IMG/VR virus record: IMGVR_UViG_3300030116_008623
Span: 1-35,724 of that record
Direction: 5' to 3' (one strand)
Length of the DNA stretch: 35,724 nt
DNA from: a virus
Made by a program: the position numbers and the translations under genes. How positions within the stretch are numbered: the first letter of the stretch is position 1; every line of letters begins with the position of its first letter. Shown one piece after another: positions 2,168-34,833 of this stretch. Below the pieces are notes generated by a model. That model saw nothing but the letters and a program-made list of their open reading frames with translations, was not told where the DNA came from and ran no database searches.

Positions 2168-2824
2168 ATGGTTGCTATCGGTAAGCAGAGTGTTGGCAGC
2201 ACGGCCAACCTTTTTCAAGGATACTGGAGCCACGTCGAGTTTCGTCCAGGTGGATGGGGCTCAGCAAACCCACGGTATCTTGGTGTTGTTCAGGAAGGTG
2301 TTCTTGAGATCTCTCGAGAAGACGTAGAGTATATGGGAACAACGTTCCCTCGTGTTGTTGAGCTTTTGACCCCATCACAGATGGGCATGAAATTCTCTGG
2401 GCAGCTTGATGAGCTGACACACACCAACATGCTGATCGCTTCTGGTGCTGACGCAGAGGACAACGCTGAAGCTCTTGCTGCAGGATATATCTACCCAGGG
2501 TCAGGGTGCAGCTTTAGTGACACGACCTATGGCACCCTCGTTGCTCGCCGCAAGAAGTGCTCGTCTGGTGTTGACGCGGACATGGAGGCAGTCCTCTGGA
2601 AGACCGTTGGCTCAGGGGCGCTTTCTATTGGTGGCGACGCGGACGTTGTTGGGACATCGGTTGAATTCAACGCCCTGGATGACAGCAATGGCGAATTCAT
2701 GCCAGCAGCTCCAGACCCAGCTAACTTGCAGGATTCTGACTGGAAAAAGAATCCAGCAGCCCACCCGCTTGGCTACCTGTTTGCGCCAGCTCCAGATGGA
2801 AATTCGGCAAACCCAGACTTATAG
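2168..2824 (+). CDS. Major tail tube protein
   Basis: A 218-residue protein with a strong AGGAGAGAAGAA ribosome site. The sequence is beta-rich (LGVVQEGVLEISREDVEYMG, then LLTPSQMGMKFSGQLDELT) and contains the strand-turn segment VGTSVEFNALDDSNGEF, similar to the V/I-E-F-x-A-L-D/E-D stretch common in siphovirus tail tube proteins. Its place after the terminator candidate and before the chaperones and tape measure supports the call. Codon choice is more regular (GCT, GTT, CGT, AAG) than in neighbours, consistent with a highly expressed structural protein. No tail sheath gene lies next to it, which argues against a contractile tail. Confidence 0.75.
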   Translation: MVAIGKQSVGSTANLFQGYWSHVEFRPGGWGSANPRYLGVVQEGVLEISREDVEYMGTTFPRVVELLTPSQMGMKFSGQLDELTHTNMLIASGADAEDNAEALAAGYIYPGSGCSFSDTTYGTLVARRKKCSSGVDADMEAVLWKTVGSGALSIGGDADVVGTSVEFNALDDSNGEFMPAAPDPANLQDSDWKKNPAAHPLGYLFAPAPDGNSANPDL

Positions 2825-2873: not shown

Positions 2874-3290
2874 TTACTTGTTGGCCTCTGCGAAGCTTTT
2901 CCTTAGCGCCATCCTCGCCTCATTTCTTTCCTCCCTTGTTCGCGCATCTAGGTTGTATACATTAAGACTCCGGCCCTGTGCAGACCTGTACCATCCGTAC
3001 TTCTTTGCTGATCTTGAGTGACGGCTTGTGCCTTGAGGCTTCCTTGAGGGTTTCTTGTCAGATGAGAGCCCTTTGGCAACCTGGCCAATAGGGAAAAATA
3101 TAGAGCTAAGCCATCCTGTAATATCAAGCTCAAACTCTTTTCTGGTGTGAGTGGTTATGTACCTCATCACACTCACACACTTCTTTTGAGCAATTACACT
3201 AACAAGTATGTCCAGCTCTGGTAGGTCTTCTAGCTCGCTTGAGCTTCCTCGGCCTGCGCCTGTGCCGCCCCCGTCACCAGGGGCAGAAGG
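2874..3290 (-). CDS. Downstream frame of tail assembly chaperone (gpT-like part of a gpGT fusion made by -1 frameshift)
   Basis: This minus-strand frame, -1 relative to the chaperone gene, is open from about 3302 to its stop at 2874. Frameshifting at GGGAAAC (3296-3290) would join residues 1-177 of the upstream gene to 138 residues of this frame, giving a fusion of about 315 aa. The added part begins with a Gly-rich linker (PSAPGDGGGTGAGRGSSS), then an acidic helix (ELEDLPELDILVSVIAQKK), a conserved-looking block (MRYITTHTRKEFELDITGW) and a basic tail with RTREERNEARMALRKSF. This mirrors lambda gpGT, where the T part recruits tail tube subunits. A separate start at the GTG at 3176 would give 100 aa but has only a weak ribosome site. 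Confidence 0.75.
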   Translation of the reverse strand, partial: PSAPGDGGGTGAGRGSSSELEDLPELDILVSVIAQKKCVSVMRYITTHTRKEFELDITGWLSSIFFPIGQVAKGLSSDKKPSRKPQGTSRHSRSAKKYGWYRSAQGRSLNVYNLDARTREERNEARMALRKSFAEANK

Positions 3291-3820
3291 TTTCCCAGTG
3301 CTTCACCATAGCCATTGAGGTCAAAAGCTTCCTTAAGAAGATGTGTACTCTGAACAAGAGTTATTTCGTCCTGTATGAATCGCTCTACGGCATCACATCC
3401 AAGCCACGCACCATCTTCAGAACGCTCCTCTGGGGAGTCGGTCGGGATCGCTTCGCTGCCAATCAGGACTCGCTTGTTGGTGGGCGTATCAAGCAATGCG
3501 ACACTCACAAGCCTCATGGTTGGCACAAACTGCTTGCCCAAAACCTCCCTTACAGCAGCCCAGATCTCGGGACCAAGCTTTGCTACTTTTGGTATAAGGT
3601 CCAGAGCTGTCGACTCATTGCCGTCCGCATTCAGCGAGAGCAATTCACCGATTGGTTTAAAAACCTTGCCTAGCTCTAATTCGGAGATCGCCTCAAGCAT
3701 TCGTGTTTCTTGGTCGAGTGTTGAAGTCTTAAGTGTTAAGATATGATCGCCTACGGGAACGTCGACAGACCTGGGTCTAAGCGACTGGAACGGGTCAAGA
3801 TTCTTTTTTCTGCTGGCCAT
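3230..3820 (-). CDS. Tail assembly chaperone, short form (gpG-like), antisense to the tail operon
   Basis: A 196-residue protein read on the minus strand between the tube and tape measure genes. I chose the ATG at 3820 (MASRKKNLDPF), with AAGGATGG upstream; longer starts at 3832 or 3916 are possible but the latter would overlap the tape measure start. The N-terminal strands (VDVPVGDHILTLKTSTLDQE) and following helices (RMLEAISELELGKVFKPIGE, then ALDLIPKVAKLGPEIWAAVREVLG) fit tail assembly chaperones, which bind the tape measure protein during tail assembly and are absent from the virion. The last 19 codons (Ala/Gln/Glu-rich) are used only when no frameshift occurs. At codons 176-177 (Gly-Asn) lies a canonical -1 slippery site. 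Gene position is classical; the strand is not. Confidence 0.8.
   Translation of the reverse strand: MASRKKNLDPFQSLRPRSVDVPVGDHILTLKTSTLDQETRMLEAISELELGKVFKPIGELLSLNADGNESTALDLIPKVAKLGPEIWAAVREVLGKQFVPTMRLVSVALLDTPTNKRVLIGSEAIPTDSPEERSEDGAWLGCDAVERFIQDEITLVQSTHLLKEAFDLNGYGEALGNLLPLVTGAAQAQAEEAQAS
3267..3296 (-). promoter_or_regulatory. Programmed -1 ribosomal frameshift signal (slippery heptamer plus stem-loop)
   Basis: On the minus strand the heptamer G_GGA_AAC lies at 3296-3290, in the exact X_XXY_YYZ phase of the upstream chaperone frame. It differs only in the last base from lambda G-T's GGGAAAG. After a five-base spacer (3289-3285), GCCCC (3284-3280) can pair with GGGGC (3271-3267) around an eight-base loop, a fitting stimulatory hairpin. 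The -1 frame has a stop at 3305-3303, just upstream of the heptamer, so the slip window is narrow and the heptamer falls inside it. Confidence 0.8.
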
Positions 3821-3848
3821 GATATTTTCCATCCTTTCAGTGGGAGTA

Positions 3849-3878
3849 TCTATAGCAGGTAAGGATCTTGACGCGCAA
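3849..3878 (-). promoter_or_regulatory. Candidate promoter for the minus-strand chaperone gene
   Basis: Reading the minus strand, TTGCGC (3878-3873) and TATAGA (3854-3849) are separated by 18 bases, each matching sigma70 consensus at 4 of 6 positions. It lies about 30 bases upstream of the chosen ATG at 3820, in the 79-base gap between the divergent chaperone and tape measure starts. A gene facing against its operon needs its own promoter, which makes this gap the natural place, but the match is modest. Confidence 0.35.
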
Positions 3879-3899
3879 TATAAATGAGGTGACGAAACG

Positions 3900-6800
3900 A
3901 TGGCTTCTAGTACCAATCAGCTAACAATTGTTCTGGGTGTTGCCGACGCAAAGCTCCGCGAGGGGATCAGGAAGGCCCAGAGGCATCTTCGGGGCCTTGA
4001 GGGGGGGCTTAATCGTGCCGGTACTGCTGGTACTGCTGCAGGGGCAAAGATTAATGCGGGCGCCAAGACTGCGGCGCTCGGACTTAATACGGCGCGGAAG
4101 TCGGTAGCGAGGTTTTCTGAGGCGGTTAGAAGCTCTGTTGTAAATCTTAGATTCCTGGCAGGCATGTTCGTTGGCGGTGCGTTGACAAGGGGGGTCGTAA
4201 GGTTTGCGTCCTCATTTGAGAAGTCCCTAGCCGAAATAAATACGCTTTTATTTAATTCAGCACAGACCGCAGAAGAATTCGGGGTGCAGCTTAAGGGTCT
4301 GGCTGCAACGACCCCAAAAGACCTGCTCGACCTAAGCGCCTCGCTTTATCAGATTATATCGGCCGGTGTCCCTGCGGGGCAGGCGATGGAGGTTTTGGCA
4401 CAGAGCACGAAGCTTGCTGTCTCATCTCTGTCTGAGACCAAGGACGCTTCAAACCTTCTGATTACAACGCTGAATGCGTACAAGCAGACAGGCCTCGATG
4501 CCGCGACAGCTACAGATAAGCTGACAAGAATATACCAATTGGGCCGTACTCGCGTGACAGAAATGTCGAGAGCGTTTGGTAGAGGTGCGCCCCTGGCTGC
4601 TCAATTTGGTGTCACCATCGACGAATTGGGTGGGTTGCTTATATCTCTAACCCGCGCTGGTTTGAATACGAACGAGTCGCTAACGGCCATCAGGGCCATC
4701 ATGTCAGGCATAGCGAAGCCGACACTTAAAACGAGAAAACTTCTCAAGGAGTTAAATGTAGCCTTTGGTCAGGGTGCGATTGACGCGAGGGGTTTTACGG
4801 GAGTCCTTGAGAGCCTTCTGAGGGCGACGGGCGGCAATGTAGACGTAATGGCTAGACTGTTCCCGAACATTCGGGCGTTGCTGCCTGCAGTAATTACTGT
4901 GGGTGCAGGCTTTGATGAATTTAGGGGGCATGTTGATGCTGTTAAGAACAGCTTTGGCGCGACAGATGAAGCACTCGCGAAGACTGATGACAAGTTTTTT
5001 AAGAGCGCGGCGCTCCTCAAGTCTAATTTTCAAAACGCTCTCGTTGAGATGGGCGACCAAGTGTTGCCCGTCCTTCAGGAGAAGCTTGATACTCTGTCGG
5101 ACTGGTTCAAGTCAGATGAGGGGGGGGAGTTTGCTCAGACCTTAGGCAAGCTAATCAGGGCGATGATCGAGATTACGGCCGTCGTTACTAGGTTTATTGC
5201 CTCCGGCCTTAAGACTGCGGTTAATTTCTTCGAGAAAAACTCAGCATCTATAGGTGTCTTAATTAAAGCGCTCCTCGCCCTTAAGGCTGCGTCAATTGTT
5301 GCATCAAACTCACTGCGCCTCTTTGGTGCTATGGGCCTCCTTGCTGGGAAGTCTTGGGTTGCTGGCCTTAAGGCCTCTTTTGCCAGTCAGCGGCTTGCAA
5401 TGCTGGGCGTCAACACTGCTAACATGACTACCGCCCAAATGGCTGCAGCATTTAAGAGTCAGAGCGCTGTAGCAAGAATTGGTAGCGCTATAGCTGTCGG
5501 CCTTAGGTCGGCCCTAAGCGTGGCAATGAGTGCAGTTATGGCTGCAGGGATTATTGCGCTGCTTATCAGCACTATATACGACCAGTTTTTTGGTGAGGCC
5601 GAGCGTCAAGCGAACGAGAGGTCGGCAAAGCTTCGCAAGAAGATGGAGAAGGAGCGAGCTGAAACGCTCAAGCTTATTGAGAGGCTTGAGCGGGAGAGGA
5701 CCGGGGCGACCCCCGAGCAGCTAGAGAAGCTAAGGGAGCGCCAAAAATCTGGGACGGTTATCAAGCTCGACCGGAGAGAGCAGAGAGATCTAATAGAGCT
5801 GGGCGCGTTTCAGCCTTTTGATTTGGCTAAAGAGGCTCAGCAGTATGTTGAGGCGCGTCAGCTTTATCAGAAAATTCTTGGGGCGTTTGCTGCAAAGCTT
5901 GGAGACCAGGCTTCTACAGATGAGGGGATGCAGAAGGCTAGAGAGCAGGCGACAGCAAGGGTTCAAGCAATCCTGGAACCAAGGATTAAAACGCTAAATG
6001 CAACGATTAAGTCTCAGTTTGAGAGCGTGGATAATGCTGCTGACACTATTCAGTCTAGCCTTCTGGGAAAGGTTGAAAGGCTTAAGAAGGGCGGGAACGT
6101 TTGGGCTGATGACTGGTTTGATTTGGATAGGTCCAACCAGAAGCCGTTGGAGCGGATAATACAATTATATGACATTCAGATTGCAGAGGTCCGAAAGCGG
6201 GTAGAGGAGGCTAAAGAGGCTGCGAAGCTTGACAGGCCCCTTGGTAGAGAAGATCAAGACAGGGAGGATAAGCTCAAGTTTGGAGAGCGCACGTCGGATT
6301 CAGGGCCAGAGCTTCCAAAAATTGACACAAGGCTTTTCGGTGGAAAGGCGAAAGAGCAGGCCGAAAGCCTTATTGCGGACCTAGTCAGGGTCCGAGAGGG
6401 ATTGGAGCTGGTAAGCGGGGCCGGGCCAGAGGCAGAAAAGGCCATGATAGAAGCCTTTCAGAGCTTTAAGAAGATTCCGGGCGGGCCGGACTTAAGTACA
6501 GGAATGCTGGCGCTTGACGCGAAGGTGCTTACGGATAAGCTCAAAGACCTTCCCCAAGAAATTAGAAGCCTGGTTATTTCTACTCGAATACAGATGGCTA
6601 ATTTTGACAGCCTGTTCGACAAGGGGCGCCTTGAGACGGCCATTGCCCCGCTGTCCGATGTTTATAAAGATGGTTTTCTGGCCAGGCTTAATCGGCTTTC
6701 TACTGACCTTAAGGCTAGGGTCGGCCCATTGGCGACGGAGCTGTCGGACATTCTTATAGCCATAGACAAGCAGGCCCAAAACCTCGTCCGTCAGTGGCAA

Positions 6801-9800
6801 GAGAAGCAGGAAAGAGGCTTGATTGATAAAAAACAATTGGCAAGGAGAATAATTAAAGTCGAAGAAATGAGAAAGGAGGTCAGGCGTGCCGTGCTTGAGG
6901 GGGGCGCGGTACAGGACATCCAAAGAACGGCTATGAATATTTCAGGGGATCCAAACATATACGGCAGAATCCCTAAGGGCCCCGATGGGAAGCCCATCGT
7001 TTCTGAGATTACATTTCAGCAGACTTCTAGTGCCACTGAGGAATTATTTAGGCCCGCAATTGGTGATGATCCTGATTTCAGCAGGTTTAGGGGCCTCCAG
7101 GGCGGTGACGCTGACAGGCTTCTAAAGGTACGTCAATTATTGCAGGGTGTTGCTGATGTAGCCAGAGCCGCCAACCGCGCAAGGGCTAAAGGCGTAAAAG
7201 AGTCAGACCATCAGCGAAGAATGATGACACGCATCATAGCGCTCGCCAGGCAGCTTAATGTGGTTATCGACGATGGCACTGAGAAGACCGTAAAAAGAAC
7301 AAACTCATTAATAGGCTTTATTCAGAATCTTTTTGCGGCAAACAAGGCGCAGAAGAAGCTTACAAAGACGACGGGTGGCGCTGGCCGAGACTTTAGGAGG
7401 TCATTTAATAAGGCCATCGCAAGGCTTATTGATAGAACCGAGAAGCAGCGTATTAAGAACAGTGTCACCCTGGCAAAGCTCCAGGTGGCAAGAAACCGGA
7501 ATGCTGCTGCGGAGTATGCGAATCTGGCGAAGTCCGCTCAATTGGGCAGGAGCTGGTATGGCGAGCAGTCTCAATTGCTTCGTGAGGTCACTGGGAGCCT
7601 CAGGTCTCAGCAAGAGATCATTCTTGCTGGTCTTGATATTCAAAGAGAGGCGACCCGGCAGCAGATAATAGCAGCCAAGGCGGAGCAGGAAAGAGCGATA
7701 GCCAGAGAGAGAACCAGGCTAAAAGAGCTGCTTAGGGGCAACGCTGCCAGTGGGGCTAGGGGCAAGAAGAACCGCATTCGTATGGAGAATGCGCTTGCCA
7801 ATTTCAGGGTTCAGAAGGAGCGTGAAACGGCCAACAAGATAGCCAAGCTTAATCTGAATTTAGACAAGAGGCTGCAAGACTCAAGCAGAAAAGCGGCAGC
7901 TATTGATCTCAAGATCGTGGACCTTCAGGTCAAAGAAATAGACGGTCGAATCTCCAGGATTAGGGACGAGCTCTCTGCGATAGGCTCACAGATTAAAACT
8001 GCCGAGTCTAGACTTAAGAACACTGGGAGCATTGAGGGCTTTATCCGTGAGCAACGAAGGCTTCTTGAGCTAAAGGACAAGGAGGCCGCAAAGAATCGAG
8101 AGATTTTAAGGGCTGAAAAGCGTAGGCAGGAGCAAATTAGGGGCGGGGCCGAGTTTACGGAGGCATTGCCGTTTCTTGACAACCTTAAGTCCAATCTGGC
8201 GAAAAGAAAGAAGCTTCTTGCAGAGGCGGAGGCGGTACAAGTAGAACCCGGAGGCTCGTTCACTGCAAGAAGGGATAATAGGGACTCCCTGATTCGACTC
8301 CGTAAGGCGGACGTAGATGAGTTTAAGTTTTATGTCGCGGAGTACCAGAAGGGCCTTGACCAGATAAAGAAAAGGAGAGAGGCAGCGGTTGCAGAGGGTA
8401 CAGCTGTAATTGACGAGAAAGCTCTAGCCAAGTCAGCAAAGACAATCCGTCAGATTAAATCCGAATTAGAGAATGTTGACAAGGCTGCTGCAAGGATACG
8501 CATCGTCAAAGCCTTAAAGACTCTTGAGGGCCTTGATTTTGGCCTCTCTGAAAACTGGTCCAGGGTAAGCGGGAGCCTGAAAGAGGCAGAAAAGAATGCT
8601 GAGCTGTTGGGTGACAGGATAGAGACCCTGCCGTTCCACACCAGGAAGGCGATCGAGCAGGCCGGTCTTTTATCTAGTGACCTTCTTGAGACTAAGCTCA
8701 TTGCCGAACAGCTTTTTAGAGCCTTTAAGAAGGTGGGCGAATTGCCCAGGCTCGGTAATCTTAGCGTTGAGATACTTAAGACTTTTACTCAATTTATCCA
8801 GGATGTCCCTGCTAGGCTGGCAAAGGCGTCGGTTGAGTTTGCTGCTGAGCTTACCGCCCAATTGGGCAACATTGGCGTTGGAGACTTTTCGTTTATTACA
8901 GATGCCGCGATGAAGTTTGCGGCTCAGGCTACGCGGCCACTTATCGACGGGATAGACTTGGTCGGAAGCCGACTAGGGATGACCTTAGGAAAGACGCTAT
9001 CAGGCGTCATGTCTGAGGCTGGTGGCCAGGCGGGTAAATTCTTTGGGGAGACGGCTGGCACCTGGTTTGGTGTGGCTGTTTCGTCGGTGCTCGATGGGGC
9101 CCTCAGGGCCGTTTCGTCTATGGTAATCTCGCCTATTACTAGCGCTGTCCAAAAGCCGTTCAGCCTTTTGACATCGGGCATCTCTGAGGCGTTTGAGTCC
9201 CTGACGAAAGAAGGGACGCTAAGCGAGCAGGCGTTCAATGAGAGGATCGACAGGCTCAACAGAGAGCACGATCTTCGTATTGACCATATATATGAGGAGG
9301 CGAACCAGGCCGCACAGAAGATTGATGATGACCTGGCGAAGACTCAAGACATCAACAAGATAAAAGAGCTTACCGCAAAGAGGGAGGAGATAAGGGCCAA
9401 GCGGGATGAAGAATTACTCGCAGCTAGGCGTGATTTTGCCAAGCAAGAGATGGAGGAGAGAGAGAAAAATAAGGGCCCTGAAAATATTGTAGAGGAGTAC
9501 ATTAATAAGGCACTAGAGTTAGTCAACACCCTCGTTGACAGATTGCCTGATCTTGCTGTTTCTGCGGTACAATCTCTTACAGAGCACCTTCCGACGATAA
9601 TTGTCGGTGCAGCAAACGCCCTTGCTGAAACGCTGTCTGCCATAGCTCCGATTATAGGTGATTTAATTGTAAGCGTGGTCCAGGGGATACTGGACTCTAT
9701 GCCTCAATTGATTAAGGCGGCAGGAGAGTTTGTTATAGGGCTGGTGGAAGGCATCATTGAGGCCTTTCTACTGATTCTCAACGATTTCGACAAAATCGCA

Positions 9801-10652
9801 GGGCCCTTAATTGAGGCCATAGCCCGAGGCGCACCAAAGATACTTGCTGCTGTGATAAAGGCCTTGCCAAAGCTTGTTGGGGCGACAATCAAAATGATCC
9901 CAATGTTCCTCATTGAGCTGGCTAAGGGTCTAGGCCTGTTAATCAAAGGCATATTTGTTGATGCAGGCGAAGCCCTTTTGGAAGTAGTCAGCTTTGGAGT
10001 ATATTCTCCAGATGGAGAAGGCAATTTTTTGAGTGGTGCCCTTGGTGGCGCCGCCTTGGGTGCGGGTATCACTGCGGGCCTTGGGTATGTCAGCACGTTC
10101 GGCGCTGCAGCAGCCCTCACCACCCCTCTCGGTTTGGGCATAATTGGCGGAGCGGCACTCTTGGGCGGCATAGGCTCTGCACTTGATTGGTGGCACAGCG
10201 GTGGAAACATCAAGGAAGGGAACAGAAACCCTGTTGGCGCTAGGCTCTTGGCTGGGCTAGGGGCTAGGGGGTATGCCACGGGCGGTCTTGTTAGCGGGAT
10301 TCAAAATTCAATTAACGGTAGCAGGCTTCGCTCTTTAAGGCGAGGCGTTGATGATGTGCCTGCCGTGCTTCAGGCTGGAGAGGCTGTGCTGAATAGGGCT
10401 GCTGTCACTAACCTGGGCGAAGAAACAATAAACGCCTTAAATTCTGGCACGCAGATAGATCAAGGCCCAACAAATGTGAATGTCAGTATTAATCCAGATC
10501 CAGGTGGACTAAATAGGGTTGTGTCTCAATTGCTTCCCCATCTTATTTCTGGAGTCAATGCAGAGGTTGACCGTCCAGGGAGCCAATTGAGGATAGATAC
10601 GATGAGACAGGGTGGTAGACCTATTGGAACCATGAGGCCCAGAAGGGGATAA
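3900..10652 (+). CDS. Tail tape measure protein
   Basis: A 2250-residue protein preceded by GAGGTGA. Residues ~105-340 match the phage-minor-tail / TP901-1 tape measure domain (KSLAEINTLLFNSAQTAEEF, then ASLYQIISAGVPAGQAMEVL, DASNLLITTLNAYKQTG, and a conserved GGLLISLTRAGLNTNE). Hydrophobic stretches follow at ~525-560; long Lys/Arg/Glu-rich coiled-coil segments occupy roughly 570-1500 and 1785-1860; repeated hydrophobic helices (~1895-2020) and a Gly/Ala-rich segment (~2045-2100) precede the usual C-terminal signature GVDDVPAVLQAGEAVLN. The protein sets tail length, is wrapped by the chaperones during assembly and is ejected at infection. No peptidoglycan-degrading motif was recognised. At about 0.15 nm per residue the length suggests a tail near 340 nm. 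It follows the chaperone gene divergently. Confidence 0.93.
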   Translation: MASSTNQLTIVLGVADAKLREGIRKAQRHLRGLEGGLNRAGTAGTAAGAKINAGAKTAALGLNTARKSVARFSEAVRSSVVNLRFLAGMFVGGALTRGVVRFASSFEKSLAEINTLLFNSAQTAEEFGVQLKGLAATTPKDLLDLSASLYQIISAGVPAGQAMEVLAQSTKLAVSSLSETKDASNLLITTLNAYKQTGLDAATATDKLTRIYQLGRTRVTEMSRAFGRGAPLAAQFGVTIDELGGLLISLTRAGLNTNESLTAIRAIMSGIAKPTLKTRKLLKELNVAFGQGAIDARGFTGVLESLLRATGGNVDVMARLFPNIRALLPAVITVGAGFDEFRGHVDAVKNSFGATDEALAKTDDKFFKSAALLKSNFQNALVEMGDQVLPVLQEKLDTLSDWFKSDEGGEFAQTLGKLIRAMIEITAVVTRFIASGLKTAVNFFEKNSASIGVLIKALLALKAASIVASNSLRLFGAMGLLAGKSWVAGLKASFASQRLAMLGVNTANMTTAQMAAAFKSQSAVARIGSAIAVGLRSALSVAMSAVMAAGIIALLISTIYDQFFGEAERQANERSAKLRKKMEKERAETLKLIERLERERTGATPEQLEKLRERQKSGTVIKLDRREQRDLIELGAFQPFDLAKEAQQYVEARQLYQKILGAFAAKLGDQASTDEGMQKAREQATARVQAILEPRIKTLNATIKSQFESVDNAADTIQSSLLGKVERLKKGGNVWADDWFDLDRSNQKPLERIIQLYDIQIAEVRKRVEEAKEAAKLDRPLGREDQDREDKLKFGERTSDSGPELPKIDTRLFGGKAKEQAESLIADLVRVREGLELVSGAGPEAEKAMIEAFQSFKKIPGGPDLSTGMLALDAKVLTDKLKDLPQEIRSLVISTRIQMANFDSLFDKGRLETAIAPLSDVYKDGFLARLNRLSTDLKARVGPLATELSDILIAIDKQAQNLVRQWQEKQERGLIDKKQLARRIIKVEEMRKEVRRAVLEGGAVQDIQRTAMNISGDPNIYGRIPKGPDGKPIVSEITFQQTSSATEELFRPAIGDDPDFSRFRGLQGGDADRLLKVRQLLQGVADVARAANRARAKGVKESDHQRRMMTRIIALARQLNVVIDDGTEKTVKRTNSLIGFIQNLFAANKAQKKLTKTTGGAGRDFRRSFNKAIARLIDRTEKQRIKNSVTLAKLQVARNRNAAAEYANLAKSAQLGRSWYGEQSQLLREVTGSLRSQQEIILAGLDIQREATRQQIIAAKAEQERAIARERTRLKELLRGNAASGARGKKNRIRMENALANFRVQKERETANKIAKLNLNLDKRLQDSSRKAAAIDLKIVDLQVKEIDGRISRIRDELSAIGSQIKTAESRLKNTGSIEGFIREQRRLLELKDKEAAKNREILRAEKRRQEQIRGGAEFTEALPFLDNLKSNLAKRKKLLAEAEAVQVEPGGSFTARRDNRDSLIRLRKADVDEFKFYVAEYQKGLDQIKKRREAAVAEGTAVIDEKALAKSAKTIRQIKSELENVDKAAARIRIVKALKTLEGLDFGLSENWSRVSGSLKEAEKNAELLGDRIETLPFHTRKAIEQAGLLSSDLLETKLIAEQLFRAFKKVGELPRLGNLSVEILKTFTQFIQDVPARLAKASVEFAAELTAQLGNIGVGDFSFITDAAMKFAAQATRPLIDGIDLVGSRLGMTLGKTLSGVMSEAGGQAGKFFGETAGTWFGVAVSSVLDGALRAVSSMVISPITSAVQKPFSLLTSGISEAFESLTKEGTLSEQAFNERIDRLNREHDLRIDHIYEEANQAAQKIDDDLAKTQDINKIKELTAKREEIRAKRDEELLAARRDFAKQEMEEREKNKGPENIVEEYINKALELVNTLVDRLPDLAVSAVQSLTEHLPTIIVGAANALAETLSAIAPIIGDLIVSVVQGILDSMPQLIKAAGEFVIGLVEGIIEAFLLILNDFDKIAGPLIEAIARGAPKILAAVIKALPKLVGATIKMIPMFLIELAKGLGLLIKGIFVDAGEALLEVVSFGVYSPDGEGNFLSGALGGAALGAGITAGLGYVSTFGAAAALTTPLGLGIIGGAALLGGIGSALDWWHSGGNIKEGNRNPVGARLLAGLGARGYATGGLVSGIQNSINGSRLRSLRRGVDDVPAVLQAGEAVLNRAAVTNLGEETINALNSGTQIDQGPTNVNVSINPDPGGLNRVVSQLLPHLISGVNAEVDRPGSQLRIDTMRQGGRPIGTMRPRRG

Positions 10653-10656
10653 AGAA

Positions 10657-13600
10657 TTGAAGTACACTAGAAGGTTAATAATTATCCCAGACGCGGAAAT
10701 AGGGCCAGAGGTCATCGAGTCTGCTCAGGCAAAGCCATCTTCTGGATCTAGCGGCAGGGAGACGGCAAAATTCGAGGCAGAGGCCACACCCTCCATTATT
10801 GCCCCAGAGCGTGGGGCAAGATACAGACAGTACCAGAGAGAGCAGGACGGTGACCTGGACATATATGGTAACCCGCTTGATGGGACGGCAGTTTCTGAGC
10901 CTGTTAAAAAGTTTTCTGATGATGATATTAAGGTTTCTTCAAGAAGGTATACCGTTGGCGCTCAATCAACGCTTGAAGACAAGGCAAGAACGGCCCACGG
11001 AGAGGGAGACATTGTCCCAACAATAACAGGGGCCCCTGAATCTGCGTCCGAATTTAATCTGCTGGTGTCTTCTGACGGAACGCCTGGCACTGCAAGGTTT
11101 TCATTTAATACAGCATCTGAATCAAGAGGGGTTACCGAGGGGGAGGGCACCTCAGAGACGTTTGTTCAAAAGCAAATGCCGGGAGATGCACAATTTCGTG
11201 GGAGTCCGCTGGTTTTCCATAAATCATCAGACTTGCTTATTTCTACAGACATTATTGGCACCAATGAGGCGGCTAACGTCGAGAGGCCTAACACATCTCA
11301 ATTATATGTTGACACTGGTGGGCCGCTGTCTGAGTACGTCAGAACCTCCCTAGGGTACTACTGCAGGCCTAAGCTTTTACCGCTAGATGACGGTCGCCTT
11401 ATGGCGATGTACCTGGACGCGAACGCCCCTGTTCAGCATTGGGCCCTGACAGGGCTTGTTGGATCAGGGTTTGCCCAAGATAACGACCCATTAAAAACGA
11501 TACCTATGGTTCAATTTGCGTCTGGAAAGGACGCGAAATGGGGGGTGGCCAAGGAGGTTGATCCGACAGACAGTATTTTCTACCCGGCCTCCGACCCGTC
11601 GACGGTGTTTGAAAGACCCTCATCGGCATTCTTTTTGGATGCCGTCCAATACAAGGATACCAGTGAGATAGTAATGGTCCTCGGTGTAAACCTGGTGGGT
11701 CATTTGGATATGGATATTTTTGAGCCAGGTGACTACCCCCCGATGACCCCAAGCGGAGATGTTCCTGAGGGCTCTGAGGCTTCGGTGCCTTTAAAGGAGG
11801 TGGGGGCGTCCGCTATTGCCGATGACAAATACCTGTGCGTCCTTTCATCTCAGGACGGGGGAGAGACTTGGGCAAGGAAGTCCCTGCTGTCTCTCAGAAC
11901 ATGGTCAAATGCACAATTAGACACATCGTTCGAGTGTGATGTGCCTGGGATTGAGCTTGATGATGCTGGCCTGATTCTGGGTGGGGCTTGCGAGCTCTCT
12001 GAGTCTGGCAGGCTTCTTGTCACCTTGTGCTCTGCCGAGAATATATACCTTCTTTCAAGTGATGACCGAGGATCTTCTTTCAAGGCCAAGAAGATAAAGG
12101 AGATAAAGGTTGACCCTGAGATTGTGGAAGTGGCCGGTCACATGGATACGCCTCCGCCAGAGGGTGATCTGATTGATGGCCAGGTGTTTATCCCTTCAAG
12201 ATATAGCTTTGTGGTGACAGGTGTTGTTGACGGGGCTAATATGGAGGATTTTCCGAGCGGGACGTATATCGTTAATCACGATCCTGCAGAGGGCGGTGGC
12301 GCCGAAGGAGGCCAGCCCTGGGTTGACCACCCGAACGAGATTTTCGATTGGGACAACGAACCCAACCCCGTCAACGACGCTCCAACCGCGACGAATTGGA
12401 GAACGCCACCTGTTGGCGGCACCGCTTATGCGACAGGGTACCTCATTAACCCCGGACCCGACGCCAAAGAGTATGAGGCTCAATCTCTTATTTGGGACTC
12501 AGAAAGCAACATGTGGTTAAGGTGGGACGCTAGGGCTGGATGGGATGGATACACAAATGAGCAGCCCCTGATATATTCTGAGGGCACTAAAGATGTATGG
12601 GACGCCCCTCCATCTGGAGGGATTTCTGTAACAAAGGGGTCAGGGTGGAGTCCAGCAGAAGATCAGTACGGTCAGTGGGGTAGCCCACTAAGGGGTGGCA
12701 TTACTGTGCGGGTTACTGGTGGCGAGAGGTTTAAGGGCAAGCTTATTGAGAGGCTTCCATATCTGCCCGACTCATCTGCGAGCGATAATTCAATTTGGAA
12801 GGTTGTTGATTCGGCAGGCATTCTGCCACAGGTGAAAGCAAGAGACACCCTGATGAGCGCGGGGATGACCCGAACGCGGACAGGAGAGGTGTGCATCTCG
12901 GTAAGCTATACCGACTTCCGAGATCTTGTTGCAGCTCCAGACTTTGTTGGCGCGAGCCTAATGTTCCAATTGTTAGGCATGGATTATTTCAACAGACCAA
13001 AGTTTCAGAAGCTGATGAACGGAGATGTTCGATCTGGTGACTTTTGGATAAACCCATCCGCCTCATACACTGCACGGAAAACCAGTGTTTTTGTAACCAG
13101 GGAAGGTGCATCTGTTATAGAGCAAGAGGCGTGGAAATATAGGGGGGGAGACCTGTCCACTACCAACGTAACCTCGGGGGCGGACACCGCCGGGGATATA
13201 GCTATATTTGGTATTAGTGGGTCACCGTCAAGCAATGAGGACCAGGCTGTTAATTTTGGGCCCTCATGCCTTGAATCAACGGTGTGCATAAGGCCGGATG
13301 GGCTTCCTCAAGTATATGGGGCGTCCCACAATTGGATGCCTCCAGAATACATAGGGCCACATCAAGACAGGTATTTTAACGGTGGACAAGGCCCCGATCC
13401 GCTTTTCCCTGGAGATAAGTACCCTGTCTGCATGGGTGTTATGAACGTGGTTGCCGGGAAAACCTTTGCGTCCACATCTGCATCTTCATCCTTTGCAAAT
13501 ACCGGAGTTTTTAATACTGAGTATGTCGACCAGATCAACACGACGAATGCTCAGCACTCGTCCAGCGGGGCCGGACGAAATACTCAATATGACGTTCAAT

Positions 13601-16600
13601 CTAATGAGATCAGCCTTGGTCGTGACGGGACCAGGTTTGGTGATGAATTCACAGCGCAAGATCCTAGAAGGATAGCTGGGGCAAACCCTGCTCATGGGGG
13701 AACATCGTCCTATGTGCCTCAGGGCTTTATTCATCCAGGCGCGATGAAGATGTATACTCCGAAAGGGTTTACATATACCACTGCCCTGATGTGGGGTCTG
13801 GCCCCGTTTGTCAGCAAGACCGAGGATCCCCAACAAAAAAACCCTGGCCTTGGTGGAAAGATCGGCCTTAGGCCCAGCGGAAACTTAAATGCTGCAGGCG
13901 GCAACGTTTGGGGCAAATTGTCCCTTTTGCACGGGCCAACCTCTGACCCGGAATCCTATCGGCAGCGTTTTGGGTTTAATTATCAGCCAGGGACAAGATT
14001 CCTTAACGGTACATTTGACGGACAATTAATTCAGGGCGAGATCTGGACATATCTTGGAGGGCCTCGCGACCCTGATAATCCTAACTCCTGGTCTAAAATA
14101 CCTCATGGTGGAGTAATGTATTTCGATTATAGCATTAACGACTATGTGAAATTTTTTGACGGCCCAAACCAGAGCCATCAGTGGGAGCTGGCACTTCCAG
14201 GAACGGGCAACATGAATATAGTGGAAGCCCCAGAGTACCTGAACAACGCGGACACCGGGTTCTTTGACAATGGGGATAATATGGCCAAATATTACGTTGG
14301 CCTTACCGGGGGCGTCACGGGGATCGATGCGGTGGAGTGGAGAGGGTGCACTTTTGTAATCTCTGCCCATACGAGCCAATATAACGAGAGGTCGTACTCA
14401 TGGATCGACCCCAATTCAAGAAAAACAAGAAGCCTTTACGGTGGAGTAAAGAGCGTTAAGGACAATTCTTCAATCATGGTCCAGAGGTCTGGTTCATGGC
14501 AACCGCTTCGCGAAAACCTGGGCAGAATTGATAACGCCTGGGATATTGGGATGGGCTCAGACTGGGCAAACACCCACACCATATATTACGGCTCATGGTA
14601 TACGAGTGAACAATACATGAACCTAATTGATGCACCCAACGCACTTACCAATACAGACGAGGTTCTATACATCATCGGATCCAAGATGATGAACGCCAGG
14701 AACAGGCTTTCTAGGTTAATGTCTGGGAGGTTTTACCAGTGCACATTTAACGGACAGCGGGATCCCGAGAAGCTGGGCTGGAATTTTGAGAGGAATGAGT
14801 CGACTGGGACACACGGCTCGATCCTGAACAGAATGTGGCTTATTGATGCCAGTGTTCCAGACACTGTTGTGCCAGCCGATGTGTCATCTAGCGCGCCATT
14901 GTCAGATGTTGCGTCAGAAGGTGGTGGGTGTGTCTTGTGGAGACAGGCCAATTCTGGTTCGTTAATTTACCTTGGCGGGTTCGATAGAGATGGGGTGGGA
15001 GAGGCTGTAGACATCAATGAAAAGGGCTTTCTGCCATTCTCCGAGGGTAGGCAATGCGCCCCAATAGCAGACGGCATGAAAACCACTCAGAACGGGTCGG
15101 CTCTTACTGGCGGATTTAGGGCGGTCTTCTGCCCATACGCATCGGAGTCCTACGAAACGACAGACTTTAAGGTCTTCTTTAGCTTGCTTCTTAACAACAA
15201 GAAGTGGCTCCCATCTACTGATCCGACCTCCGCAGGGGCAGCGCCCACCCCAAAGATGGCCGGGATAATTGTGAGCATGGGTTATGACATGATCAATAAC
15301 GAGGTCATTGTCGAGGCGTTTGATGGTGGAGACCTCTTTGCGAACCAGAATGTTTCCAGTCTTGGCCCATCGGTAAGATTCCCTGTTCCGCCAGCGGGGT
15401 CGGGCCTAAAGTGGATAGAATTGGTTGCTGGGTTTGAGGAGTCTTTTGCTGGCGCGGGGTCAATTGTCGGACCTGAATTAGCGAACAAGTACCCAAGGCC
15501 AACCTGCTTCCATGCCCACGTTAGGCAGTGGGACAGGGATAACGACGCGGATTGGATTGGAAGCTTCTCAACCCTTGTAAACTATGCGACTAAGCCTACT
15601 TATGACATCCCTCAGGCGAGCCCATATGCGGGGCCCGGTGGCACTATAAATTTTAACCAGGAGCATTTCGTAATTGGAAACATGGGCGCAGGGATTGGGA
15701 ACACGCACACAAACACTGCCGATGGCGGGGTTGTAATTAAAAGCGTTTCGCTTCACCGACCAGGGCAGCAAATAAAGGGCAGAAACGAAATACCTTCAAA
15801 CGTCATTGAGCCAGGCAGCGGTGGCACCAGCCTAATTCTAGGCGGAGGCATGTATGATACCCGCCTTTTCGGAACAGGGTTTACCGTTCCGAACACTAGG
15901 ATTGTTGCAGAGCAGGATCAGGTTGAGGGGAATTGGCTTTCCGGCGACATTAGGACGGACTGGGGCGGCATTGACCCAAGGTATATCGTTAGCGAGTCTT
16001 CATCGTCTAACTTTTATTACGGGACTCCCTATTTTAATACTAGTGCGGGTTCTGCTGCCTTGACTGAGAATGATTCAGGCGTCTTAAACCCAACATTGCC
16101 TCAATTGTGTCTACCAGTAAGGTCTTTTATTAAAGACGGGATGGAGTGTGAGTGGAGAGGGGAGGCCCAGGAGTCTTCAACCTTCGCAGTGTCTTCTTCG
16201 CACCTGTTTTCGGCCAAGAACGCACTCTCTGGACCAGTGACAAAGCCTTGGAAAACAGGGAATGGGGAGCCGTTGTACTCTCTCCTTCCTGAGTGGGCGG
16301 GCCTTGGGCTTGCGGCCCAAAGGATAGAGAACATTGATGCACAGACCACCACATTCAAGAGGAAGGGGAGGCCAAATTCCTATGTTATTGAGGATGTTGA
16401 AATACTCATGGACTCATGGGGCGAGTCAGGGCAGGCATCGTCAAAAGACTATGTAAACGACATTGTCTTTAACCTCGGCACCAAGAAGCAATTCTCCCCA
16501 AACGGAATCGCGATGTTTGGCAAGAATTTTCCCGCGTTTGACATAGAGTTTAGCAATACCAAGGAAGGCCTTGATGGAGATTCGACCGAGAGATTTAAGC

Positions 16601-17931
16601 TAAGCTTCGGGCTTCCTGGAGATGGCAGGATTGAAAGCAATTCTGCAGACTGGTTCTCTTACGAGCCCGACAGGTATATCCACCTTTGGGCATGGACTGC
16701 CGACGATTTTAGCGCTGCCGGACATTCCTGCTCTCCGCTTGTATCTGGCGGACAGGGCAAATTCCCTTACTTCGGTGATAGGACTTTTACATATCGCACG
16801 AACATTGGAGATGAGACCGTTCAGGAGATCCAGAACATCTACGCAAAAAACGAGGCCCAGGAAAAGGCGACCCCCTGGATGCCCCATCAGTTTAAAAGCT
16901 CAAAGAACGGGCCCTCGTTTTATATTCAGGTGATAGCGGAGGCATTCGCAGGCCAGGGCGATGAGGCCTGTAGGTTTGTGTTTAAGATTGTCGACAACAC
17001 AGAAGACACGCTTATTCTCGATGAGAATCCTTTAAAGGTTCTATCTCAATATTCTTACGACCAGAACAACCCAGAGGGGTACACTGGCACGTATCGTTCA
17101 TGGAGGAACGTTTCCATATTTTCTGACAGGATGGCCTCCGAGATTGTTTACTATGCAATCACAGACGCATCGAAAAGCATCTCTCAGCACGACGGGTTTT
17201 GGAATCAGCAAACACCGTCCCTGCCTGGGTCCGGGTTTAGGTACTGCAGGATAACTGTTAAGGGCTGCACAAGGTTCGGGGGTGAAAAGTCTCAAAGGCT
17301 TGGAAGGCTTGTAATGGGCAGGCTTCTGGATCTATCAGGCCCAGACTTTGAGTGGGGCTGGAGCAGGTCAGAGAATTCAGGTGTAAAGGTGATGACCACA
17401 AGGGGCGGCCAGCGGTTCGCCAAGAGCAGTCATGCCCCCAGAAGGGTGTTCAATGTTTCTCATGGCGTCCTTGAGCCCACGGTTGACCTTAACATCGACA
17501 CAGATCCAAACGATCCCAACCTTTCAAACTACTTCGAGTCTCCAAGGAGAGGGTTCGGTAGCAGTTTTGGGCCAGGCTGGCAGAAAGAGAAAAGAAAATG
17601 GGAGGAGGTTGTTGCCCTCCTAAGATCGCTTGGGCCGGGCCTCGAGGAAGCAGCGCTTGTTTTTGAGGGTGATTCTGCCCTTGATTCTAAGCAGCCAGGA
17701 TCGGATACTTTATCCCGTACAAGGGTTCCTACTGACCCGACAAGCTTATGCCTTGTTCGGCTTATGAGTTATGGGCAGATGACCCACAAGGGATATGTAG
17801 GCAGAGAGATACGGGTGCCAAACGGTTCTCAGTCAGATGCCACTGGCTGGACGGGTACGTTTGGCAGCACGGTTTGCAGGCCTCGCCCGTTGATTGAGGT
17901 CACCGCCATCCAGTTTGAGGAGGATTTTTAG
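10657..17931 (+). CDS. Very large tail-tip/fibre protein with sialidase-type Asp boxes
   Basis: A 2424-residue protein starting at TTG, four bases after the tape measure stop, with AAGGGG about eight bases upstream. Two Asp boxes of the S-x-D-x-G-x-x-W type are visible: SQDGGETW at residues 398-405 (perfect) and SDDRGSSF at 468-475 (Trp replaced by Phe). These are turns of sialidase/BNR beta-propellers, which in phages bind or cleave surface glycans. The remainder is rich in Gly, Trp, Asn, Tyr and short beta segments, as in virion adhesins; I could not assign further domains. A full sialidase needs an arginine triad I did not identify, so binding rather than catalysis may be its role. It starts the adsorption block and probably is the main host-recognition or tip protein. 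Confidence 0.65.
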   Translation: MKYTRRLIIIPDAEIGPEVIESAQAKPSSGSSGRETAKFEAEATPSIIAPERGARYRQYQREQDGDLDIYGNPLDGTAVSEPVKKFSDDDIKVSSRRYTVGAQSTLEDKARTAHGEGDIVPTITGAPESASEFNLLVSSDGTPGTARFSFNTASESRGVTEGEGTSETFVQKQMPGDAQFRGSPLVFHKSSDLLISTDIIGTNEAANVERPNTSQLYVDTGGPLSEYVRTSLGYYCRPKLLPLDDGRLMAMYLDANAPVQHWALTGLVGSGFAQDNDPLKTIPMVQFASGKDAKWGVAKEVDPTDSIFYPASDPSTVFERPSSAFFLDAVQYKDTSEIVMVLGVNLVGHLDMDIFEPGDYPPMTPSGDVPEGSEASVPLKEVGASAIADDKYLCVLSSQDGGETWARKSLLSLRTWSNAQLDTSFECDVPGIELDDAGLILGGACELSESGRLLVTLCSAENIYLLSSDDRGSSFKAKKIKEIKVDPEIVEVAGHMDTPPPEGDLIDGQVFIPSRYSFVVTGVVDGANMEDFPSGTYIVNHDPAEGGGAEGGQPWVDHPNEIFDWDNEPNPVNDAPTATNWRTPPVGGTAYATGYLINPGPDAKEYEAQSLIWDSESNMWLRWDARAGWDGYTNEQPLIYSEGTKDVWDAPPSGGISVTKGSGWSPAEDQYGQWGSPLRGGITVRVTGGERFKGKLIERLPYLPDSSASDNSIWKVVDSAGILPQVKARDTLMSAGMTRTRTGEVCISVSYTDFRDLVAAPDFVGASLMFQLLGMDYFNRPKFQKLMNGDVRSGDFWINPSASYTARKTSVFVTREGASVIEQEAWKYRGGDLSTTNVTSGADTAGDIAIFGISGSPSSNEDQAVNFGPSCLESTVCIRPDGLPQVYGASHNWMPPEYIGPHQDRYFNGGQGPDPLFPGDKYPVCMGVMNVVAGKTFASTSASSSFANTGVFNTEYVDQINTTNAQHSSSGAGRNTQYDVQSNEISLGRDGTRFGDEFTAQDPRRIAGANPAHGGTSSYVPQGFIHPGAMKMYTPKGFTYTTALMWGLAPFVSKTEDPQQKNPGLGGKIGLRPSGNLNAAGGNVWGKLSLLHGPTSDPESYRQRFGFNYQPGTRFLNGTFDGQLIQGEIWTYLGGPRDPDNPNSWSKIPHGGVMYFDYSINDYVKFFDGPNQSHQWELALPGTGNMNIVEAPEYLNNADTGFFDNGDNMAKYYVGLTGGVTGIDAVEWRGCTFVISAHTSQYNERSYSWIDPNSRKTRSLYGGVKSVKDNSSIMVQRSGSWQPLRENLGRIDNAWDIGMGSDWANTHTIYYGSWYTSEQYMNLIDAPNALTNTDEVLYIIGSKMMNARNRLSRLMSGRFYQCTFNGQRDPEKLGWNFERNESTGTHGSILNRMWLIDASVPDTVVPADVSSSAPLSDVASEGGGCVLWRQANSGSLIYLGGFDRDGVGEAVDINEKGFLPFSEGRQCAPIADGMKTTQNGSALTGGFRAVFCPYASESYETTDFKVFFSLLLNNKKWLPSTDPTSAGAAPTPKMAGIIVSMGYDMINNEVIVEAFDGGDLFANQNVSSLGPSVRFPVPPAGSGLKWIELVAGFEESFAGAGSIVGPELANKYPRPTCFHAHVRQWDRDNDADWIGSFSTLVNYATKPTYDIPQASPYAGPGGTINFNQEHFVIGNMGAGIGNTHTNTADGGVVIKSVSLHRPGQQIKGRNEIPSNVIEPGSGGTSLILGGGMYDTRLFGTGFTVPNTRIVAEQDQVEGNWLSGDIRTDWGGIDPRYIVSESSSSNFYYGTPYFNTSAGSAALTENDSGVLNPTLPQLCLPVRSFIKDGMECEWRGEAQESSTFAVSSSHLFSAKNALSGPVTKPWKTGNGEPLYSLLPEWAGLGLAAQRIENIDAQTTTFKRKGRPNSYVIEDVEILMDSWGESGQASSKDYVNDIVFNLGTKKQFSPNGIAMFGKNFPAFDIEFSNTKEGLDGDSTERFKLSFGLPGDGRIESNSADWFSYEPDRYIHLWAWTADDFSAAGHSCSPLVSGGQGKFPYFGDRTFTYRTNIGDETVQEIQNIYAKNEAQEKATPWMPHQFKSSKNGPSFYIQVIAEAFAGQGDEACRFVFKIVDNTEDTLILDENPLKVLSQYSYDQNNPEGYTGTYRSWRNVSIFSDRMASEIVYYAITDASKSISQHDGFWNQQTPSLPGSGFRYCRITVKGCTRFGGEKSQRLGRLVMGRLLDLSGPDFEWGWSRSENSGVKVMTTRGGQRFAKSSHAPRRVFNVSHGVLEPTVDLNIDTDPNDPNLSNYFESPRRGFGSSFGPGWQKEKRKWEEVVALLRSLGPGLEEAALVFEGDSALDSKQPGSDTLSRTRVPTDPTSLCLVRLMSYGQMTHKGYVGREIRVPNGSQSDATGWTGTFGSTVCRPRPLIEVTAIQFEEDF

Positions 17932-24371: not shown

Positions 24372-24618
24372 GCCAAGTGCACCATTCGAGTTAGATGGGG
24401 CGTCTATCTACCCGCAGGAGCGGGATGTACTGTCCTCCATCATTACGGTAATATACTCGGCCAACCCTGGCAGGAGAGAGTCACTGGTACTGAAGCATGC
24501 CCAGGAGACCTTTAAGCAGATTATGTCGATCCAGGATGGCCGGTGGGTAAGAAGGCCTGTTTTCACAATAGGCAAAAACGGGGATGGTCCATCTGTGTAT
24601 GTTACGTCCGCTAAGTAG
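24364..24618 (+). CDS. Hypothetical protein, 84 aa
   Basis: An 84-residue protein whose start overlaps the preceding gene by eight bases, with only a weak ribosome site, so translation is probably coupled. It reads as a compact alpha/beta unit: an N-terminal polar stretch (PSAPFELDGASIYPQERDVL), a helix (SIITVIYSANPGRRESLVL), a second helix (KHAQETFKQIMSIQ) and a terminal strand pair (RPVFTIGKNG, SVYVTSAK). No known family recognised. Being last before the candidate promoter at 24654, it ends the transcription unit that starts with the tail genes. Confidence 0.55.
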   Translation: MPKPSAPFELDGASIYPQERDVLSSIITVIYSANPGRRESLVLKHAQETFKQIMSIQDGRWVRRPVFTIGKNGDGPSVYVTSAK

Positions 24619-24653
24619 CCGTAACAGTTATAAGTGTTTGAAAACAATTACTT

Positions 24654-24682
24654 TTGTCACAAGTGCTTCAATGTGAGATATT
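24654..24682 (+). promoter_or_regulatory. Candidate promoter before the capsid genes
   Basis: TTGTCA (24654-24659) and GATATT (24677-24682) are separated by 17 bases, matching sigma70 -35 and -10 boxes at 5 and 4 of 6 positions. The surrounding 70 bases (24619-24688) are AT-rich compared with the genes. The start codon at 24689 lies only six bases after the -10 box and has no clear ribosome site, so a transcript from here would be nearly leaderless. Plausible but unproved. Confidence 0.35.
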
Positions 24683-24688
24683 GAGACT

Positions 24689-26052: not shown

Positions 26053-27243
26053 ATGCATGGAGCACTTCTCGACCCCCGCATTTCAGCACCAGATGTTGAG
26101 GCCAAGTGGGGTCAGTTTATTGAAAGCAAGGATCCAGTAAAGCGACGCTGGATTGCCCACAACATCGAGAACCAGACTAAGTTTATGGCAGAAAGCGCCA
26201 AGGCTGGCACGTTTGGGTCTCGGTTCTACACTAATGACCGAACCATCCTGGGGGGCCGAAGCAGTCTCACAGAGGCTACCCTTGGTGCAGACATTGACAA
26301 TTTCACTCAGCAGTCTATTGCTATGGTTGTTGACGTTTTCGAGCGATTCTCAATCGACGAATTGATCAACATCGTATCAATGAGTGGTCCTAGTGCTTTC
26401 GTCCACACCCTTGGCTTCAACGCAGTCGAGGCATACGCTGGCGGTCAGGCTGGAGACCCGCTAAACGCGGCGCTTCAGATTGACTACTCGGATTGTCCCG
26501 CTGAATGCGAAAACGAGAGCAAGGGCGTAGAGCTAGAGCTCAGCGCTAAAAAGATTACCGCTGACTGCAAGCGTCTTCAGGCTAAGTTTAGCGTGATTGC
26601 CGAGCAGGATCTTCAGAGCCAGTATGGAATGAGCCTTAGCGAGCGGCTTCGCTCAGTAATGGCAATCCAGATGGCACGAGAGATTCAGGGTGAGATTCTT
26701 GCTGCACTCGTCGCTGGCGCTGGTTTCGGTGTAAACTGGGCCTCTGCCATTCCTCAGGGTACCGTCTACACGACTCTTGACCCCAAGGTTTATCAGTCTA
26801 CGCTATGGGACGCGATTCAGGACTGTGACACCGAGATCTTCAAGTCCGTTGATGGTCGTCGTGGGGCAAACTGGGTTGCTGGTAGTCCAGACGCAATGAA
26901 TTACCTGCTGCAATTGAATCAATTCAGCATCACCTCTCGGGACAACGTTCCTCGCGGAGAGGCCGGTAATGGCGATATTGATGAATTCAGTAACTTCTTC
27001 GGCACTGCTAATCATCGGTTCCGAACATATAAATTCCCTTTCATGCAGGCAGACACCATTCTTCTTGGTGTTAAGAGCGACGCGCCTCAGGAGCAGGGAT
27101 TTATCCACGGCACCTACGTCCCATTGACGGACCTTGGAACATTCCGAGATCCCGCCAAGGCGTGTGTCACTGTTGGCGCCACCACTCGATATGCGAACGA
27201 ATTGCTTCGTCCGGGCATGTACGCCAAGGTCACGATCACCTGA
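26053..27243 (+). CDS. Major capsid protein (T4 gp23-like lineage)
   Basis: A 396-residue protein with the strongest ribosome site in the window (AAGGAGA) and regular codon use, as expected of an abundant protein. Its segments follow the gp23-like capsid family: a helical N-arm (VKRRWIAHNIENQTKFMAES), a FTQQSIAMVVDVFERFSIDE spine, an E-loop-like region with DYSDCPAECENESKG, a long helix (YGMSLSERLRSVMAIQMARE), an axial domain with GANWVAGSPDAMNYLLQL, and the C-terminal strands TRYANELLRPGMYAKVTI. The order protease, then capsid, then two strong terminators supports a capsid gene whose message is stopped right after it. Proteolytic removal of the N-arm by the upstream protease is likely. Confidence 0.87.
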   Translation: MHGALLDPRISAPDVEAKWGQFIESKDPVKRRWIAHNIENQTKFMAESAKAGTFGSRFYTNDRTILGGRSSLTEATLGADIDNFTQQSIAMVVDVFERFSIDELINIVSMSGPSAFVHTLGFNAVEAYAGGQAGDPLNAALQIDYSDCPAECENESKGVELELSAKKITADCKRLQAKFSVIAEQDLQSQYGMSLSERLRSVMAIQMAREIQGEILAALVAGAGFGVNWASAIPQGTVYTTLDPKVYQSTLWDAIQDCDTEIFKSVDGRRGANWVAGSPDAMNYLLQLNQFSITSRDNVPRGEAGNGDIDEFSNFFGTANHRFRTYKFPFMQADTILLGVKSDAPQEQGFIHGTYVPLTDLGTFRDPAKACVTVGATTRYANELLRPGMYAKVTIT

Positions 27244-27265
27244 TAAGGGTTTTGACCCACAGTTT

Positions 27266-27298
27266 AAGGGGGGCGCGTATGCGCTCCCCTTTTTCTTT
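27266..27298 (+). terminator. Rho-independent terminator after the capsid gene
   Basis: An 11-base-pair stem, AAGGGGGGCGC (27266-27276) with GCGCTCCCCTT (27281-27291) including one G-U pair, has the four-base loop GTAT and is followed by a T-rich tail (TTTCTTT). It begins 23 bases after the capsid stop. This is a textbook intrinsic terminator. Confidence 0.9.
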
Positions 27299-27313
27299 GT
27301 ACTGCGGTATTAT

Positions 27314-27354
27314 AAAACCGATGCGGGGCCATATTGTGCTCGCATCGGTTTTTT
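27314..27354. terminator. Second terminator, likely bidirectional
   Basis: A perfect 12-base-pair inverted repeat, AAAACCGATGCG (27314-27325) and CGCATCGGTTTT (27341-27352), surrounds a 15-base loop. A-runs at the left and T-runs at the right would give U-tracts on both strands. It follows the first terminator by 16 bases, making a tandem stop after the capsid gene. Confidence 0.85.
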
Positions 27355-27380
27355 AGTTTCAAGATAACTACCCGTAATAA
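27352..27380 (+). promoter_or_regulatory. Weak candidate promoter before the portal gene
   Basis: TTTAGT (27352-27357), a 17-base gap and TAATAA (27375-27380) could be a poor sigma70-type promoter. The main argument is context: two terminators lie just upstream, so the portal gene needs either readthrough or a new start here. A phage-specific promoter of different consensus is equally possible. Confidence 0.2.
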
Positions 27381-27398
27381 AAAGACTCTGGAGATGAC

Positions 27399-30906: not shown

Positions 30907-31330
30907 ATACAGAGCAGAGTTTAGGTCAGAGCTTGCCCCAATTGAAAAAGAGGCTGCGAGGGCCAGAAGCCCCTTCATCAGAATGGCGGTTTATGACCAA
31001 GAGACGCAGCGCATGTTCAAGCACCGTGTTGCCAGCAGGTTTCTTGTCAAGGGCAGGCCCGTGGGCGGAGGCAGGCTTGAGTGGGACGTGTACGCTCTCT
31101 GCGGCATGGATGACCCAGTATTAATTGCTGGAGGGTTTGCCTGGCAGGAGGAGGCCATGCTCTTTGCCAGAGACAGAAAGATGGGTCGCCAGTCCGTTTC
31201 ATTTGGTGGCATTCGTGGGCTATTTAAATCGACAGGCTCAGGTATCTCTGTACCAACGAAGAATGTTGATCTGCCTGGAAAGACTAACGTTAAGGTTAGG
31301 GAAACTGGATCGGGCGTAATTGTAGAATGA
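30896..31330 (+). CDS. Hypothetical protein, 144 aa
   Basis: A 144-residue protein with AGGAG upstream and an 11-base overlap with the preceding gene. It has a helical N-terminus (FRSELAPIEKEAARARSPF), a beta middle (MFKHRVASRFLVKGRPVGGG, then WDVYALCGMDDPVLI), a helix (FAWQEEAMLFARDRKMG) and a Gly/Ser-rich tail with NVKVRETGSG. Its stop overlaps the next start (ATGA), tying it to the hub candidate. No family recognised. Confidence 0.6.
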   Translation: MSVKYRAEFRSELAPIEKEAARARSPFIRMAVYDQETQRMFKHRVASRFLVKGRPVGGGRLEWDVYALCGMDDPVLIAGGFAWQEEAMLFARDRKMGRQSVSFGGIRGLFKSTGSGISVPTKNVDLPGKTNVKVRETGSGVIVE

Positions 31331-34812: not shown

Positions 34813-34833
34813 GCTTTGCTCCAGTGTAAAAGA

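Follow-up and report, generated by a model that had tools for sequence, protein, structure and literature searches.

In long-tailed phages, the genes for the tail tube, a frameshifted pair of tail assembly chaperones and the tape measure protein lie on one strand, an arrangement that ranks with the most conserved traits of these viruses. The slippery site of the lambda pair is G_GGA_AAG. Frameshifting of the G/GT type is widely conserved among long-tailed phages even though sequence similarity is low, and the G:GT ratio in lambda is ~30:1 (PMC5009743). For HCTV-1, a haloarchaeal virus, the listed shift site is G_GGA_AAC (PMC5009743). The gene pair described here resembles lambda G/GT and its long-tailed phage relatives in its slot between the tube and tape measure genes, in its two overlapping frames and in a longer predicted product that would add a T domain. 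It differs from them in lying on the strand opposite to the tail operon and in lacking detectable sequence similarity.

The window, that is, the whole 35.7-kb viral contig analyzed (IMGVR_UViG_3300030116_008623), contains a tail module at ~354-22,400, followed by head genes (protease, capsid and portal) and the first part of an early region on the minus strand, with genes for RuvC, SSB and an annealing protein. Every window gene between positions 354 and 33,840 is on the plus strand, with the exception of the pair in the chaperone slot. This minus-strand pair is sandwiched by two plus-strand tail genes. The upstream gene (2168-2824, plus strand) has homologues in two related IMG/VR contigs, G001 (75,141 bases) and L020 (32,568 bases), and is assigned to the tail tube by position alone, with no match in profile searches. 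The tape measure gene (3900-10652, plus strand; 2250 aa) directly follows the pair and is identified by profile (PF10145, 3.9e-25; phrog_991, 4e-37; and other tape measure families). The original prediction of a chaperone-slot pair inverted within the tail operon is therefore borne out. Immediately after the tape measure gene, a 2424-aa protein (10657-17931) is encoded that has related proteins in G001; it is unmatched in PHROGs and the phage collection, and its first half is also unmatched in Pfam. The major capsid protein (26053-27243) matches the T4-type family (phrog_138), with ~25% identity to those of T4-like and jumbo phages. The same contig pairs this capsid protein with chaperone genes of a lambda-like frameshifted layout and with a tape measure protein of the PhageMin_Tail type.

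The G-like chaperone ORF (ORF 1; 3230-3820, minus strand; 196 aa) starts at ATG 3820, where conservation begins (MASRKK in the window and MATKKR in G001), and has homologues in the same slot and on the same strand in G001 and L020. The mechanical opening of this ORF at TTG 3916 was dropped in favor of the ATG. A T-like open frame (2874-3302, minus strand, stop to stop), also with homologues in G001 and L020, overlaps the 3' end of the G ORF in the -1 phase. This overlap and its in-phase heptamer were absent from the original prediction. The G frame in the overlap reads CTG GGA AAC, and the slippery heptamer G_GGA_AAC spans positions 3296-3290 of the minus strand. The heptamer is in phase at the codons of an invariant LGNL sequence in each of the three genomes. 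The same heptamer is used for G/GT frameshifting in HCTV-1, an archaeal virus whose likeness covers the shift site, whereas lambda has G_GGA_AAG. Across the window genes examined, 19 of 10,291 codon positions carry an in-phase slippery heptamer, and ~0.04 would thus be expected by chance in the 24-codon overlap. In a scan of the window, an in-phase heptamer with a long -1 extension was found at one other place, a small plus-strand ORF (16622-16933) within the 2424-aa gene, and no other in-phase slippery overlap connects two plausible genes. A slip at the heptamer would add ~138 T codons and generate a G-T fusion of ~315 aa.

The T frame has a sole candidate start codon, GTG 3176. Upstream of this codon, 18 of 40 T-frame residues are identical between the window and G001, and 9 of 17 residues are identical between the G stop and the GTG. 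An independent T start at GTG 3176 was ruled out because conservation reaches upstream of it, which suggests that the T frame is read by frameshifting and not from its own start. The coding strand is evident from the differences between the window and G001 in ORF 1, which number 64, 51 and 113 at the first, second and third codon positions, respectively (184 codons, minus frame). The predominance of third-position changes in the minus frame marks the minus strand as the coding strand. On the same ground, the plus-strand ORFs at 3239-3673 and 3375-3746 were rejected as shadow frames.

Position and frameshift anatomy indicate that the minus-strand genes are very probably a tail assembly chaperone pair. 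The pair is flanked by the tube-position gene and the profile-identified tape measure gene, and its frames overlap at a -1 slippery heptamer that is conserved in relatives. The G/GT property of co-orientation with the tail operon is lacking, with the pair on the minus strand in three of three genomes; co-orientation is a feature of gene order and not of the protein family. Neither protein matches any PHROG, Pfam, NCBIfam or PDB profile, and HHalign comparison with the chaperones of named phages revealed no similarity. A structure model with a mean pLDDT of 44 consists of two strands followed by helices, and both structure models are too poor for a fold search. Because similarity among known G/GT ORFs is low (PMC5009743), the lack of profile and HHalign matches is expected and weighs little against membership. 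The tail chaperone identity that had been claimed for the pair stands on the slot, the -1 overlap and the conserved heptamer, and finds no counterpart in profile or HHalign matches. Morons carry their own promoter and terminator, are unrelated to tail assembly and occur sporadically in relatives. The pair could instead be a moron-like cargo module that entered this site, equipped with a promoter and a 3' hairpin of its own, in phages devoid of a G/GT pair; morons share the opposite strand and the 3'-terminal hairpin, and no known chaperone is similar. However, the pair fills the exact chaperone slot, in which nothing else is found, its in-phase heptamer and -1 extension are conserved in three genomes, and the window has no second slippery overlap of this kind, which together make the cargo reading improbable.

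Single-query IMG/VR searches with the chaperone, tube and tape measure proteins retrieved no relatives. Relatives were reached starting from a capsid protein match in IMG/VR, and alignments then led to G001 and finally to L020, whose capsid protein is 50% identical to that of the window. In G001, a tube-position gene (42787-43446, plus strand) is followed by a G-like gene (43874-44431, minus strand) and then by a plus-strand tape measure gene, and the gene order and strands of L020 are identical to those of G001 and the window. The pair was found in all three genomes that cover the locus. The G protein of the window shares 54% identity with that of G001 and 46% with that of L020, and the corresponding values for the T frames are 38% and 34%. 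Comparison with related genomes had been proposed as a means to distinguish a conserved inversion from misassembly, and it answers in favor of conservation. An assembly error, in which the orientation would be an artifact of the window, is excluded because the same inverted pair is present in separate contigs at 46-54% G protein identity, a divergence for which misassembly cannot account. In G001, the homologue of the gene at 31327 runs off one contig end and continues at the other (L016, L017), and G001 is probably a complete, circularly permuted genome despite its linear class in IMG/VR.

Beyond these contigs, tblastn searches of named phages and plasmids with the chaperones yielded no relatives, and none were found in the prokaryote genomes searched. 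Dinoroseobacter phage R5C, Marinobacter phage PS3 and other named phages encode related tape measure proteins (~30% identity over 300-400 aa). In contrast to the window, all 11 of the named phages inspected have the tape measure gene and its immediate upstream neighbor on one strand. The literature searched, with a coverage that leaves out most subscription journals, contains no precedent for an inverted chaperone pair.

On the minus strand, G adjoins the tape measure gene and T adjoins the tube gene, and an in-place flip of the block gives the canonical tube-G-T-tape measure order. The simplest history is a single inversion with breakpoints within the two junctions. That a flip would restore the canonical order is also compatible with an on/off switch in which a site-specific recombinase inverts the segment, and G001 has a gene (L017:14583-15296, minus strand) for a serine recombinase that is related to both phage integrases and DNA invertases. 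However, all three contigs have the same orientation, and inverted repeats between the junctions do not exceed chance in the three genomes (their scores are reached by 23%, 18% and 90% of shuffles). Since flanking inverted repeats are lacking, an active invertible switch is very improbable. Judged by the comparison of the three contigs, the inversion of the pair is a stable, unusual rearrangement that has been kept in an uncultivated phage group.

The two junctions of the pair differ in their conservation. The divergent gap that separates the G ORF from the tape measure gene (3821-3899; 79 nt), a predicted feature that agrees with the start at ATG 3820, is conserved in length, with 79, 78 and 80 nt in the window, G001 and L020, respectively, and its sequences are not alignable. 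Its promoter content is presumed. No recognizable sigma-70 promoter stands out on either strand of the 79-nt window gap. The G001 gap contains a weak minus-strand candidate promoter (TTGATT-16-TATGCT) that is matched by 2% of shuffles. A minus-strand TATAAT in L020 was rejected as the G promoter because its overlap with the start codon prevents it from driving G. A plus-strand motif shared by the gap (at 3844) and the sequence ahead of the protease gene (at 24613) was also discarded, because these very sites had served to define its pattern and it is missing in the G001 and L020 gaps. Separately, a conserved noncoding element precedes the protease gene (24619-24688; TATAAG, TTGAAAAC and TGTGAGATA), is common to L002 and L003 and partly to G001, and is possibly a promoter.

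The convergent junction, where the tube-position gene meets the T frame, varies in length, with 49, -4 and 193 nt in the window, G001 and L020, respectively. The hairpin anticipated at 2840-2866 of the window junction is supported by folding. For the stretch at 2832-2875, the folding energy is -25.4 kcal/mol as the plus strand and -27.0 kcal/mol as the minus strand (z-scores of -3.0 and -3.7), and a stability scan places it among the two strongest both-strand places of the 35.7 kb. The sole other equally strong both-strand hairpin is located at 34833, between the RuvC and SSB genes. The window junction hairpin lacks a U-tract and is thus not a canonical intrinsic terminator. The G001 and L020 junctions contain hairpins of unrelated sequence that are less prominent than that of the window and rank within the top 3% (G001) and the top 2% (L020) of windows, ranks of modest weight since the stretch was chosen after looking. 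In L020, a plus-strand stem-loop (8628-8705; -34.2 kcal/mol) follows the tube-position gene and is succeeded by a short T run. Elsewhere in the window, the capsid-portal interval contains a tandem pair of terminator-like stem-loops (27244-27398), the first of which is also present in L002 and L003.

The junction structures bear on the original prediction that antisense control may set the dosage or timing of the chaperones and that the tape measure gene is served by readthrough or a promoter of its own, proposals that the analysis neither supports nor refutes. Late plus-strand transcription could proceed from the tube gene through the pair into the tape measure gene, and antisense RNA or colliding polymerases would then lower late chaperone expression. 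Because the T frame of G001 shares 4 nt with the tube-position gene, transcripts reaching both stops must overlap there, and in the window no U-tract terminator separates the tube-position gene from the T frame. However, the L020 stem-loop and the strong window junction hairpin would limit such readthrough, and we regard antisense control as unlikely. An extended version, in which a divergent and perhaps bidirectional gap promoter sets the chaperone:tape measure ratio and tail-operon readthrough silences the chaperones late by antisense, is likewise doubtful.

The orientation could also be devoid of a regulatory role, as an old inversion that was tolerated because the late region already has several transcription units. 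The two terminator-like stem-loops after the capsid gene imply that the late genes are not one transcript. Moreover, the third-position AT skew on the coding strand is -0.19 (T over A) in the late plus-strand genes, -0.04 and +0.12 in the pair and +0.02 in the minus-strand early genes. The near equality of A and T in the pair, unlike that of the late plus-strand genes and nearer to that of the minus-strand early genes, is consistent with long residence on the minus strand, although the sample is small. On the other hand, the arrangement has been kept in three genomes at 46-54% G protein identity with a constant gap length, which hints at selection. A tolerated accident is accordingly a possible but less than even prospect.

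The reading that we favor, with a probability of about 0.7, is that the locus contains a G/GT-type pair of a long-tailed phage that was inverted in place as a block in an ancestor of the group and has since been kept as a separate minus-strand transcription unit. Because the pair faces the tail operon, it would require a minus-strand transcription unit of its own. The minus-strand transcript may start in the 78-80-nt divergent gap, which perhaps also holds the start of tape measure gene transcription, and may end at or near the convergent-junction hairpin. Ribosomes would translate G from ATG 3820, and a minority of them would slip by -1 on G_GGA_AAC (3296-3290) and continue in the T frame to position 2874. 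By analogy to lambda, the targets of G and the G-T fusion would be the tape measure protein and the tail tube.

Gene finders and frameshift predictors that assume a one-strand tail operon can miss such a pair. In this lineage, the frameshift anatomy is kept in the absence of the shared strand. The arrangement would uncouple the G:GT ratio, which is set by slippage, from the chaperone dose relative to the tape measure protein, which is normally set by co-transcription.
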